25,580 bases of DNA from a virus, in IMG/VR virus record IMGVR_UViG_3300032893_000258, positions 1-25,580 of that record; one strand, given 5' to 3'. Every line of letters starts with the position of its first letter. The first letter of the stretch is position 1. A model generated the notes under the pieces. That model was not told the origin of the DNA. It searched no databases and was given only the letters and a program-made list of their open reading frames with translations. Position numbers and translations under genes: made by a program. Positions 4,665-10,344 of this stretch are shown here, piece after piece.

Positions 4665-4770
4665 TTATTTTATTCTTTTTTGGTTTTTTATAACAATATA
4701 TATAAAAATCATTTGTTTATAGAAAAATAGTAGCATCATCATGCCCAAAATTTGCTCTTTTTCTGAGACG

Positions 4771-4803
4771 TGAGACAAGATAGAGCCATTATTTCTTGTC
4801 TCA
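4771..4803. repeat. Perfect 10-bp inverted repeat in the GAGAC array
   Basis: TGAGACAAGA (4771-4780) is the exact reverse complement of TCTTGTCTCA (4794-4803), with 13 bases between. It joins one direct and one reversed GAGAC copy, so it can be read as a dimer binding site or a hairpin. No T run follows. Confidence 0.55.
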
Positions 4804-4934
4804 GCTATGTTATTGAATAATATAAATAAAAAAATAGTTAATCAATGGGTTATCTTGCTGAGACGTGAGACAGGGGATTTTCCCAAAACTTTGTCATAAC
4901 CCTGCTTACATATATATAACTTATGTCTCTATGT

Positions 4935-5009
4935 CTCAATCTTATAACATATTGACTCTATATATAATAATATATATATAACAATATGTTATGCCGAGAC
5001 AAGATTGAG
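4935..5009. repeat. Long inverted repeat around a TA-rich centre
   Basis: The left arm 4935-4954 (CTCAATCTTATAACATATTG) is matched by CAATATGTTAT (4982-4992) and AAGATTGAG (5001-5009), i.e. 20 paired bases with an 8-base insertion (GCCGAGAC, one more core copy) in the right arm. The 27-base centre is almost pure TA. A TA-rich bubble framed by inverted repeats fits a DNA unwinding element of an origin; a transcription end signal is possible. Confidence 0.5.
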
Positions 5010-5080
5010 CCAAGAATGAGTTGAGCAGAAAATCCTTTGTCTCAGTTTGACAGAATCATTACGAATCAGTATGATAGATT

Positions 5081-5735: not shown

Positions 5736-7029
5736 GTGTCAACGTTAAGGATTGAAACGCCTCGAGCGTTTGTTCCTTTGTTATCGCCAGCGCGGTACAA
5801 GGGGACATGGGGGGGGCGAAGGCGGCGGCAAGAGCCATTTTTTTGCGGAGCTGAGTGTGATACGGCATGTGCAGGGGTGCGTGAGGCAGGCATGTATCCG
5901 TGAGGTACAGCGTTCGATAGCTCAGTCTGTTAAATTATTGATAGAGGATAAGATAAAGGCATTGGGGGTAGGGGGATATTTTACGGTGTACAAGGATGTG
6001 ATAGAGACTCGGCATGGAGGTGTTATTATATTTCAGGGGATGCAGAATTTCACGGCTGACAACATTAAGTCATTGGAGGGGTATGACATTGCGTGGGTAG
6101 AGGAGGCTCAGACGTTAGGGGAGCGGAGTTTGCGGTTATTGCGTCCGACGATAAGGAAGGATGGGAGCGAGTTATGGTTTAGTTGGAACCCTGAGAATGA
6201 GGAAGATCCTGTGGATGTGTTGCTGCGCGGAGCGGGGCGGGTGAAGGATGCGCGGGTAGTGCGGGTAAATTACATGGATAATCCGCATCTTACGGCTGAG
6301 TTACGGCAGGAGATAGCGATTGATTCGGAGGGTGACCCTGAGATATTTGCGCATGTATGGTTGGGGGAGTATAACAAGGTCACGGAGGGGGCGATTTATG
6401 CTAAATTAATGATAGATATGAGGAATGAAGGGAGATTGTGCAAGGTGCCGTACAATCCTGCGTTTGAGGTTCATACGGCGTGGGACATCGGGGGGGACGG
6501 GACAAGTATTGTGTTTTTTCAGGTGGTTGGTAGGGAGCCGAGGATTATCGATTCGTATATGGAGGTAGGGACGCAGCTGGGGGACCAGGTAAGGATATTG
6601 AAGGAGAAGGGTTACAATTATGGAACACATGTTTTGCCGCATGACGCGGGGCACCAGAGCGTGCGGACGGGGATGACGATGGTGGCGCAGCTGGAGGGTA
6701 TGGGGCTGGAGAATTGCGAGGTATTACCGAGGGATGACATAGAGCCTGGGATAGAGCTGGTGAAGGCGTTGCTGCCGCAGCTGGTGGTGGATGAGGAGAA
6801 GGGGGAGCCGTTCGTTCGGGCGATGAAGAATTACCAGCGGCAATGGAACCGTGAGCATAAGGTATTTTCGAAGAAGCCGTTACATAACTGGTCGAGTCAT
6901 ATGGCAGACGCTAGCCGGGCTATGGCGGTATGGCTGGCGACGCGGAACAATTATCCTGTTGTAAAGGCGAGCGAACCGGCGTATGGTTATGGATGGGGTC
7001 ATGGAGGGGATACGGCATGGATGGTATAA
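5736..7029 (+). CDS. terL: Large terminase subunit (PBSX/Terminase_3 type), frame interrupted at G run
   Basis: ATPase-nuclease that drives DNA into the prohead. From GTG 5736 the frame reads as a typical N terminus (ETPRAFVPLLSPARYKGTWG), then at the eight G of 5809-5816 it leaves the frame of the rest (GGEGGGKSHFFAELS onward). Seven G would give a continuous 430-residue protein. Walker A is GGEGGGKS, Walker B YDIAWVEEAQ, motif III-like WFSWNPENEEDPVD, and the nuclease aspartates are in TAWDIGGDGT, LPHDAGHQSV and SHMADASRAMAVW. The only unshifted alternative is a TTG at 5752, giving an unrelated N terminus. Codon use is odd: Gly mostly GGG/GGT, Leu TTG/TTA, Glu GAG, unlike the portal. The 3' end overlaps the next gene by 13 bases. 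Confidence 0.85.
5809..5816 (+). other. Run of eight G at the terminase frame break
   Basis: The upstream frame reads ACA TGG GGG GGG CGA; the downstream frame needs GGC GAA from 5815. The shift is +1 (one base skipped), and falls exactly in the Walker A loop coding sequence. Explanations: a homopolymer length error in the read, a true inactivating insertion, or slippage that yields some full-length protein. Confidence 0.75.
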
Positions 7030-7263: not shown

Positions 7264-10200
7264 GTGGCCGCAGCGGGCGGCGCGGGTCGCAAGCATGAGT
7301 GCTTCCCCGTGGATGAAGAAAGTGATTCAGCCGTAAATCCTGTTATTGCCAAGGCGCTTAAGCGGTTCAAGCTGGCGGAGGACGCGGAAGAGGACATACG
7401 CACTAAATCCTTGAAGGATTTACGTTTCCGCGCCGGAGAGCAATGGCCGGAGGATATTCAGCAGACACGCGTGCTGGACAAGCGCCCATGCTTGAATATC
7501 AACAGGTTGCCACAATTCATCCGGCAGGTGACGAATGACCAGCGGCAGAACAGGCCGTCGCTGAGATTCACTGCGACCGACGAGTCCACTGTCGATACGG
7601 CGGAGATTATGGAGGGGCTGGCACGGCATATCCAGTCGGCCAGCAACGCGGATATAGCGTTCGATACGGCCTGCGAAATGCAGGTAACCATCGGTTTCGG
7701 TTATTTCATGGTTGACACGGAGTATTGCGATGATAATGGCTTCGACCAGGAGATAAAAATCAAGAGGATAAAAAACCCGTTCACCGTGTATTTCGACCCT
7801 GACGCCCGCGAGCCGGATTATTCGGATGCGAAATGGGCGTTCATCGTCAGTGATGTAAGCAAGGATGAATTAAAGGGGCAGTCGGAGTTAAGCTATTCCG
7901 ATATATCGCTTTCGTCAGTGGGAGACCAGGCGCCGGGCTGGATACAGGATACTCGTGTCCGTATCGCGGAATATTGGGAAGTGGAAGAAACGGAACGCAC
8001 AGTGTACCTCCTGGCGGACGGCACGCTTACCGAGGAAAAACCAAAAGATAAAAACCTCATTGCCAAAAAACGGCAAGCCATTGACCGAAAAGTCATCTGG
8101 CGGAAAATCACGGCGATGGAAGTGCTCGATGAACGCGAATGGCCGGGACGGTATATCCCTATCGTGCCTGTCCTGGGAGACGATCTCGACATCGACGGCA
8201 AGCGCCGGTTAACCGGCATGGTGCGCGATGCGCAAGACCCCATGCGCATGTATAATTACTGGTCGCCTTTAGCATTGGATACCCCTATCCCTACGCCTTC
8301 CGGGTGGACTACAATGGGTGAAATTAAAGTTGGAGACCAAGTATTTGATGAACGTGGCGAAATATGTGACGTGCTTGGCGAGAGTCCTGTACATATTAAC
8401 CGGGAATGCCTCAAGATTACTTTTGACGATGATTCAATTATCGTCGCCGATAAAGAACATCCTTGGGTAGTCGAGGAACGCGGCAACAGGAAAACCATTA
8501 CTTGGGACTGGAAGAAAAAGAAAATAACAACAGGTGAGTTAACACCCGGCAAACATTTCATATGGTCGTCTAAGCCTCTTGTCACAAAAGAAAAAGAACT
8601 TCCGGTTCATCCTTATCTTCTGGGGGTATGGTTAGGGGATGGCTGTACAGCTGTGCCTCGTATTTCCCAAGGAAAAGACGATTTACAAGATTTAAGAGGC
8701 GAGCTTTCAGATTTAGGGTTCGACCTTGGTAAAAGTTATATTGATGCTAGCGGGCATGGGCATTTTACCGTATTGGGGATGACAGAAGCATTTTTAGCAG
8801 CGGGAGTATTAGGAAGAAAGCATATCCCATCTGATTATTTGCGTGCATCGTACGAACAAAGACTCTTCTTATTGCAAGGGCTGATGGATACTGACGGCTC
8901 TATTTGTACTAAGACCAAAACATGCGAATATACCACTATTCTTCCTGAATTAAGGGATGGTTTGATCGAATTGCTGCGTTCGATGGGGATAAAGGCGAAA
9001 GTATTATATCGTAATCGCAAAATCGCTGTTTTTGGCGATAGATCATATAAGACGGCAGAAGCATATCAATTTAATTTTACATGCCCTGAGCTACCAATAT
9101 TCCGTTTAAAAAGAAAAAAGGAAATGCAGGCGGATAAAAAGAATTATCATCCGCGTCGCACCAAAAGATATGGTATAAAAAGCGTCGAATCCGTCACTTC
9201 GGTGCCTGTTAAATGTATTGGCGTTTCCAGCAAGTCTCACCTTTTTCTAGCTGGCGAGGCAATGATACCGACGCACAACAGTGCTATCACGGAAGCGATT
9301 GCGCTGGCCCCGCGCGCGCCGTTCATCGCGGCGGAAGGCCAGATAGAGAACTATAAGGCGCTATGGGAAAGCGCCAATACGCGCAACTGGTCGCATCTTC
9401 CCTATAGACCCGTCGCGCTCAATGGCGCGCTGGTGCCCGCTCCGATGCGCAACCAGGCCGAACCGCCGATCATGGCCATGCAGCAAGCCCTTGCCGGAGC
9501 CGATCGTGACCTCATGCACACGACCGGCATTTATCAGGCGGGACTCGGCCAGAAAAGCAATGAAACCAGCGGTCTCGCCATCCAGAAACGCCAGCATGAA
9601 GGTGATGTGGCGAATTTCCATTACATCGATAATCTAAGCCGGGCAATTCGTTTCCTTGGCGTCATATTATTGGATTTGATACCGAAAATTTATGATACCG
9701 CCCGCGTCATCCGTATTTTGCATGAAAATAATGAAGCGGAAGTGGTAAAGATCAACCAGATATTCAGCCACAAAGGAAAGACCGTCAATTACGACATGAC
9801 GGTGGCGAAATACGATGTCTCCGTGCAGGTCGGGCCGAGTTTCGATACGAAACGCCAGGAATCCGCCGATGCCATGTCCACGGTCTTGCAGGCTAACCCC
9901 CAGCTTTGGAATGTTATCGGCGATCTGGCCGTGCAGAACATGGACTGGCCGGGCGCGCAACAAATGGCCGAACGCCTGAAAAAAATGCTGCCGCCGCCCT
10001 TGCAGGAAAACCCCAATGGACAGCCGCCATTGCCGCCGCAGGTACAGGCACAGCTCCAGCATTCCCAGCAGATGATTCAGCAACTGACGCAGGCGCTCAA
10101 CGAAGCGCAGGATAAAATCGACGCCAAGCAGCAGGACATCGAGAGTCGCGAACGCATCGCCGCGCAGAACAATGAAACGAATCTTGCCATTGCCGCGTTG

Positions 10201-10344
10201 CGCATGGAGGGCGCGAATAACCTTGGTTTGCTTAAGGAAGAGTTAACCCATATCCGCGAACGTCTGGCTATGCTCCACGCCAATGTCCCGATGGAAAATG
10301 AAACCGCCGAACCGCCGCAGGGGCAAACATTACCAGCTTCTTAA
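7264..10344 (+). CDS. P22-like portal protein precursor containing an intein
   Basis: 1026 codons. Residues 1-334 and 673-1026 form a P22-family portal: NPVIAKALKRFKLAEDAEED, LDKRPCLNINRLPQFIRQVT, FTVYFDPDAREPDYSDAKW, then after the intein IALAPRAPFIAAEGQIENY and RDLMHTTGIYQAGLGQKSNE, and a C-terminal Gln-rich coiled coil (about 930-1000). The portal is the dodecameric vertex ring through which DNA is packaged and ejected. Removing the 338-residue intein leaves 688 residues, close to P22 gp1 (725). The ligated junction reads MYNYWS-SAITEA, which fits the family's conserved block. The start is uncertain: GTG 7264 has no clear ribosome binding site, and GTG 7309 would also suit the family length. 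Confidence 0.9.
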   Translation: MAAAGGAGRKHECFPVDEESDSAVNPVIAKALKRFKLAEDAEEDIRTKSLKDLRFRAGEQWPEDIQQTRVLDKRPCLNINRLPQFIRQVTNDQRQNRPSLRFTATDESTVDTAEIMEGLARHIQSASNADIAFDTACEMQVTIGFGYFMVDTEYCDDNGFDQEIKIKRIKNPFTVYFDPDAREPDYSDAKWAFIVSDVSKDELKGQSELSYSDISLSSVGDQAPGWIQDTRVRIAEYWEVEETERTVYLLADGTLTEEKPKDKNLIAKKRQAIDRKVIWRKITAMEVLDEREWPGRYIPIVPVLGDDLDIDGKRRLTGMVRDAQDPMRMYNYWSPLALDTPIPTPSGWTTMGEIKVGDQVFDERGEICDVLGESPVHINRECLKITFDDDSIIVADKEHPWVVEERGNRKTITWDWKKKKITTGELTPGKHFIWSSKPLVTKEKELPVHPYLLGVWLGDGCTAVPRISQGKDDLQDLRGELSDLGFDLGKSYIDASGHGHFTVLGMTEAFLAAGVLGRKHIPSDYLRASYEQRLFLLQGLMDTDGSICTKTKTCEYTTILPELRDGLIELLRSMGIKAKVLYRNRKIAVFGDRSYKTAEAYQFNFTCPELPIFRLKRKKEMQADKKNYHPRRTKRYGIKSVESVTSVPVKCIGVSSKSHLFLAGEAMIPTHNSAITEAIALAPRAPFIAAEGQIENYKALWESANTRNWSHLPYRPVALNGALVPAPMRNQAEPPIMAMQQALAGADRDLMHTTGIYQAGLGQKSNETSGLAIQKRQHEGDVANFHYIDNLSRAIRFLGVILLDLIPKIYDTARVIRILHENNEAEVVKINQIFSHKGKTVNYDMTVAKYDVSVQVGPSFDTKRQESADAMSTVLQANPQLWNVIGDLAVQNMDWPGAQQMAERLKKMLPPPLQENPNGQPPLPPQVQAQLQHSQQMIQQLTQALNEAQDKIDAKQQDIESRERIAAQNNETNLAIAALRMEGANNLGLLKEELTHIRERLAMLHANVPMENETAEPPQGQTLPAS
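8266..9279 (+). other. Class 3-type intein with LAGLIDADG homing endonuclease
   Basis: 338 residues excised from the portal. It starts PLALDTPIPTPSGWTTMGEI (block A) with Pro at position 1, not Cys or Ser, and ends MIPTHN followed by Ser +1. The class 3 triad is complete: Trp67 in KEHPWVV (block B), Cys317 in VKCIGV (block F) and Thr336 next to His337-Asn338 (block G). In class 3 inteins the block F Cys makes the first thioester, replacing the missing N-terminal nucleophile. The endonuclease has LLGVWLGDG (about 117-125), HIPSDYL and LLQGLMDTDG (about 202-211), with acidic residues kept in both motifs, so it looks active. Codon use is more AT-rich than the surrounding portal. Confidence 0.88.

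Follow-up and report, generated by a model that had tools for sequence, protein, structure and literature searches.

A probable class 3 intein in a P22-like phage portal gene and its relatives at the same portal site

Class 3 inteins are defined by three residues, Trp at B:12, Cys at F:4 and Thr at G:5 (PMC5222942; likewise PMC5050341), and in MchDnaB1 Trp67 adjoins an active site described as a Cys-His-Thr triad (PMC7664689). Class 3 inteins that begin with Pro are established, as in phiCbK TerL (PMC3556154), and the same article cites another in DnaB of the mycobacteriophage Bethlehem. The initial annotation of the locus described here had singled out Pro1 as noteworthy, which, given the textbook phiCbK case, it is not. 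Its view that a portal host is unusual needs narrowing too, since Kelley 2016 (PMC5050341) already tabulates six portal (PORT) inteins in cluster C1 mycobacteriophages. While the claim to novelty is thus weaker than first stated, what appears to be new is a set of inteins in P22-type portals and their occurrence in two insertion registers: our literature search found no description of inteins in P22-type portals and no paper on adjacent intein registers.

A class 3 insert in a P22-type portal gene

The window, by which we mean the whole 25,580-base IMG/VR fragment analysed, comes without a cultivated phage. It derives from a P22-like phage and carries, all in a single direction, genes for primase/helicase, TerL, portal, scaffold, coat, head-closure and tail proteins. 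The start of terL (GTG at 5736, ...TPRAFVPLLSPARYKGTWGG; window 5736-5830) is out of frame with the rest of the gene, the two frames joining at an eight-G run at 5809-5816; this reflects a slippery site, or else an error in the assembly or the homopolymer, and because of it the assembly may hold errors. In an AT-rich non-coding stretch upstream (4760-5060), GAGAC/GTCTC recurs many times in either orientation (e.g. CTGAGACGTGAGACA); this may be an origin or a set of regulatory repeats. A free-standing 124-aa ORF at 1565-1939 matches PHROG homing endonuclease families (GIY-YIG), and is a second homing element on the same fragment as the portal intein.

The portal ORF (7264-10344, plus strand) encodes 1026 residues with no internal stop (Table 1). 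The Pfam profile PF16510 (P22_portal) matches it at 5.1e-167 in two stretches that lie on either side of the insert and together span the whole length of the profile; the first pairs portal residues 32-334 with profile positions 1-310, and it is at position 310 that the intein splits the profile. Both the P22-family host and the 338-residue in-frame insert proposed in the initial annotation are thereby borne out. When the flanks are joined, they read RMYNYWS^SAITEAIALAP (^ marks the insertion point), to be compared with RMYNYWV^SQEAEMLALAP and others from intein-free portals: the alignment is gap-free, and removal of the insert gives back uninterrupted family sequence.

Table 1. Features of the interrupted portal gene, in window positions
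Feature	Position	Strand	Basis
N-extein, portal residues 1-334, GTG start	7264..8265	+	PF16510; phmmer to Sf6 gp3 (7sfs) and P22 portal (3lj5)
Class 3 intein, 338 aa, Pro1 to Asn338	8266..9279	+	Translation, homology, predicted structure
Block B codons His65 (B:10), Pro66, Trp67 (B:12)	8458..8466	+	H65 and W67 kept in 16/16 P22-portal inteins
Homing endonuclease domain, about residues 108-295	8587..9150	+	VIA-align to I-Tsp061I (2dch), Z 15.8
First LAGLIDADG motif LLGVWLGDG, Asp125	8617..8643	+	Asp invariant in 16/16
Second LAGLIDADG motif LLQGLMDTDG, Asp210	8869..8898	+	Asp invariant in 16/16; PF14528 and PF05204 above cut-off
Cys317 (F:4), predicted first nucleophile and branch point	9214..9216	+	Invariant in 16/16 P22-portal inteins
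Block G end: Thr336 (G:5), His337 (G:6), Asn338 (G:7)	9271..9279	+	Invariant in 16/16
C-extein, portal residues 335-688 and stop	9280..10344	+	phmmer to Sf6 gp3, 2.1e-17; second PF16510 stretch
Ser+1 (G:8), predicted second nucleophile	9280..9282	+	Direct reading

As read directly from the translation, the insert begins PLALDTPIPTPSGW and ends MIPTHN, with Ser as the next residue. It carries the full class 3 signature (W67, C317, T336), a Ser at +1 as class 3 allows (Ser/Thr) and, by sequence, no nucleophile at residue 1, which is Pro; the numbering of His65 and Trp67 is identical to that of MchDnaB1 (PMC7664689). In a phmmer search of the PDB the top matches are the class 3 DnaB inteins 6bs8, 6rix and 6riy (E 5.6e-25 to 4.2e-23), aligned up to both ends of the intein. 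An AlphaFold (AF2) model, for which 57 related inteins were used, reaches a pLDDT of 96.7 and shows the HINT fold (VIA-align), its splicing domain superimposing on 6bs8 (1.1 Å, 125 residues, 44% identity) and the entire model matching PI-SceI over 320 residues (Z 27.5). The Trp67-Cys317-Thr336 set noted at the outset is present, and both the predicted fold and the positions of the active-site residues match solved class 3 inteins. All features of sequence and modelled structure by which class 3 can be assessed here agree, which supports membership of that class; the element is a real and very probably functional class 3 intein.

For splicing we propose that Cys317, aided by His65, Trp67 and Thr336, would attack the Ser334-Pro1 peptide bond, so that the N-terminal half of the portal would be transferred first to Cys317 and from there to Ser+1; Asn338 would cyclise with the assistance of His337, and the exteins would be joined as MYNYWS-SAITEA into a 688-residue portal containing the junction-spanning peptide MYNYWSSAITEA. 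Since the class 3-like Arth_1007 intein is a pseudogene and a class 3-like intein that lacks Cys F:4 and His B:10 was shown to be inactive (both PMC3196547), and splicing of the window intein is a prediction, the insert could instead be an inactive relic, or a HINT domain that cleaves but does not ligate and so splits the portal into two chains. We regard this as highly improbable, given that the window intein keeps Cys F:4, His B:10, all other catalytic residues and Ser+1, that the portal frame is intact with a family match on both sides in a tailed phage, which needs its portal, and that the junction gives back the family sequence exactly.

The position of the insert within the portal also bears on splicing. 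When the intein-free relative L217 is modelled (pLDDT 77; best match P22 portal, Z 34), the insertion site falls within helix 323-346. Because the intein would interrupt the middle of this predicted long helix, ring formation by unspliced subunits is unlikely, and judging from the model an unspliced intein would very probably keep the subunit, or the ring, from folding. The description of the site as the most conserved block of the family holds only in rough terms: the 31-residue window around the site ranks 8/668 for conservation, the 15-residue window ranks 113/684, and right at the junction the residue varies within the family.

Relatives at the same portal site and their two registers

Searching IMG/VR viral contigs by junction pattern and alignment, we found class 3 inteins at the insertion site of the window intein in the P22-type portals of 16 further contigs (L044, L046, L049, L056-L067 and L084); L046 is a near-copy of L044, and the counts of invariance below are taken over 16 distinct sequences. 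The relatives are 46-56% identical to the window intein, none exceeding 56% in the sets searched. The set, which had not been listed before, comprises at least 15 different class 3 inteins at one spot in the P22-type portals of uncultivated phages. The search for the insertion site elsewhere, which the initial annotation had suggested, thus succeeded among viral contigs, but in INPHARED (50,697 phage records) neither the window intein nor that of L066 has a relative more than 39% identical, with no portal among the matches listed. Scans with a junction pattern in genome contigs and with a C-junction pattern in viral contigs gave zero matches, the latter pattern being too strict. The best plasmid match, Endozoicomonas CP092490, was considered as a portal intein and rejected, its context being a gpA-type terminase.

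H65, W67, D125, D210, C317, T336, H337 and N338 show zero variation across the 16 P22-portal inteins, and Cys F:4 is also shared without exception by the 57 class 3 relatives in the intein alignment. Residue 1, on the other hand, varies among P, L, C, A and D. Such a fixed catalytic set together with a free residue 1 is what class 3 predicts, and this argues for active elements. The +1 residue is Ser or Thr, L066 with Cys being the exception. L060 and L061 have Cys at residue 1 alongside the full Trp-Cys-Thr set. A 72-row tree favours a single clade for the P22-portal inteins (SH-aLRT 89), whereas a 26-row tree does not resolve the point and the AU test does not reject monophyly (p 0.31); we therefore do not claim a single origin.

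The inteins occupy two adjacent registers. In 12 of the 16 distinct sequences (register 1) the intein lies between NYWx, or its counterpart, and Ser/Thr. In the other four (register 2; L056, L059, L066 and L084) it sits one codon earlier, directly after NYW (NFW in L056, NYN in L084), so that the x residue becomes +1 (T, T, C and T, respectively). These four do not group in the intein tree (0/200 bootstrap trees; AU p 0.019), and L066 is sister to L044 of register 1 (93/98). The two have an identical predicted mature sequence, NYWCSQEAEML, with the TGC codon lying 5' of the intein in L044 and 3' of it in L066. A reading of L044 as a class 1 intein starting at the Cys before Pro was rejected, as the portal would be one residue short. 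The second register arose repeatedly. Either repeated one-codon shifts of the splice register or independent insertions would explain this, and that the register shifted by one codon several times is, in our judgement, an evenly balanced proposition. If it is true, the freedom of class 3 at residue 1 would allow the element to slide whenever the neighbouring codon can supply the +1 nucleophile. The roughly 15 natural variants at one site, which differ in residue 1 (P/L/C/A/D), in +1 (S/T/C) and in register, could serve to test the residue needs of class 3 splicing, and also shed light on the invasion by inteins of an essential ring protein, one in which every subunit presumably has to be spliced.

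The endonuclease, empty sites and patchy distribution

The LAGLIDADG endonuclease that had been annotated in the insert is confirmed, with two motifs that each hold a catalytic acidic residue (D125 and D210) and with LAGLIDADG_3 and Hom_end both above their Pfam cut-offs; K185 is invariant in 16/16 P22-portal inteins. It would cut intein-free portal genes at the conserved site, and repair would copy the intein in. Such empty sites, sought as proposed initially, are plentiful: all 80 of the closest portals in viral contigs are intein-free and continuous across the site, as are without insert the five annotated phage portals examined. At the level of DNA, the joined flanks of L044 are 79.7% identical to L270 across the site over 1801 nt, and those of L066 are 76.6% identical to L053 over 1803 nt.

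On the portal tree, presence and absence of the intein imply 9 changes, of which well-supported branches force 8; as intein-free portals were sampled by closeness, the 9 changes are a lower bound on turnover and give no rate. This patchy presence is consistent with homing. The pair L060/L061 fits recent transfer: the intein has a dN of 0.010 and a dS of 0.127, versus a dS of 0.354 in the C-terminal half of the portal (Fisher p 1e-5). The low dN relative to dS indicates purifying selection on this intein, and its lower dS than that of the portal indicates a common ancestor younger than that of the surrounding gene.

Endonuclease decay is common among inteins, and it could be that the window intein splices while its endonuclease no longer cuts, the element being inherited vertically with the portal gene. 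The 56% ceiling on identity to the window intein in the sets searched speaks for this, as no copy close enough to show recent movement directly came up. We nevertheless consider it rather unlikely: K185 and the two catalytic aspartates show no variation, the GC content of the window intein (42.7%) is about 12 points off that of the exteins (54.1 and 55.6%), and distribution on the portal tree is patchy. The same patchiness among otherwise similar portals speaks against conditional splicing as a needed switch that times portal assembly, for example by redox control at Cys317, and the locus has no sign of regulation. Mycobacterial class 3 DnaB inteins are reported to be sensitive to redox, chlorine and zinc (PMC6195587, PMC8557812 and PMC7360933), which lends this idea some plausibility, although we hold it to be improbable here. 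The preferred reading is that 8266-9279 is, in all likelihood, a bifunctional class 3 intein, HINT domain plus LAGLIDADG homing endonuclease, inside a P22-type portal; that it splices and cleaves DNA we infer from what can be seen directly, namely the sequence, the fold, the empty sites, the invariance of the catalytic residues and the patchy distribution.

Comparison with known inteins

The class 3 DnaB inteins of M. smegmatis (6bs8) and M. chimaera (6rix, 6riy) share the fold of the window intein (rmsd 1.1-1.6 Å, ~40-44% identity), His65/Trp67, the block F Cys and the block G Thr-His-Asn, but they are mini-inteins without an endonuclease in a DnaB helicase, whereas the window intein bears a LAGLIDADG domain and lies in a portal. 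PI-SceI has the same two-domain layout of splicing domain and LAGLIDADG endonuclease, but differs in its class 1 chemistry, its yeast VMA host and its identity of ~20%. Like the window intein, those of Bethlehem (as cited in PMC3556154) and phiCbK TerL start with Pro, carry an endonuclease and interrupt a phage gene; their host proteins, however, are DnaB and terminase rather than portal, and none of the closest annotated phage inteins exceeds 39% identity. The cluster C1 PORT inteins share the portal host gene, but these are myovirus portals for which the accessible part of PMC5050341 does not establish membership of the P22 family and states neither the intein class nor the insertion site.

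Class 3 relatives are also found in gpA-type terminases. Class 3 inteins of terminases lie at PK(G)^SGK (L088, L092) and GK^S/T (L136), both within the Walker A region and separated by about three codons. Among HK97-type portals (PF04860), L008, L077 and L085 carry class 3 inteins, as does L094 by identical junction sequence. All four share one site, GAGE or KAE followed by the intein and then by S/T-R-x-A-A or similar, and form their own starred clade in the intein tree. A class 3-like intein in a Mu-type portal (PF06074; L013:2742-5426) lies at NPEGR^S, on a very long tree branch. These HK97- and Mu-type portal inteins resemble that of the window in combining the class 3 signature with a portal host, but differ in portal family, insertion sequence and branch of the intein tree. 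Class 3 inteins were seen here in three portal families, and the P22-type portal, which is thus a recurrent intein site, is one of them.
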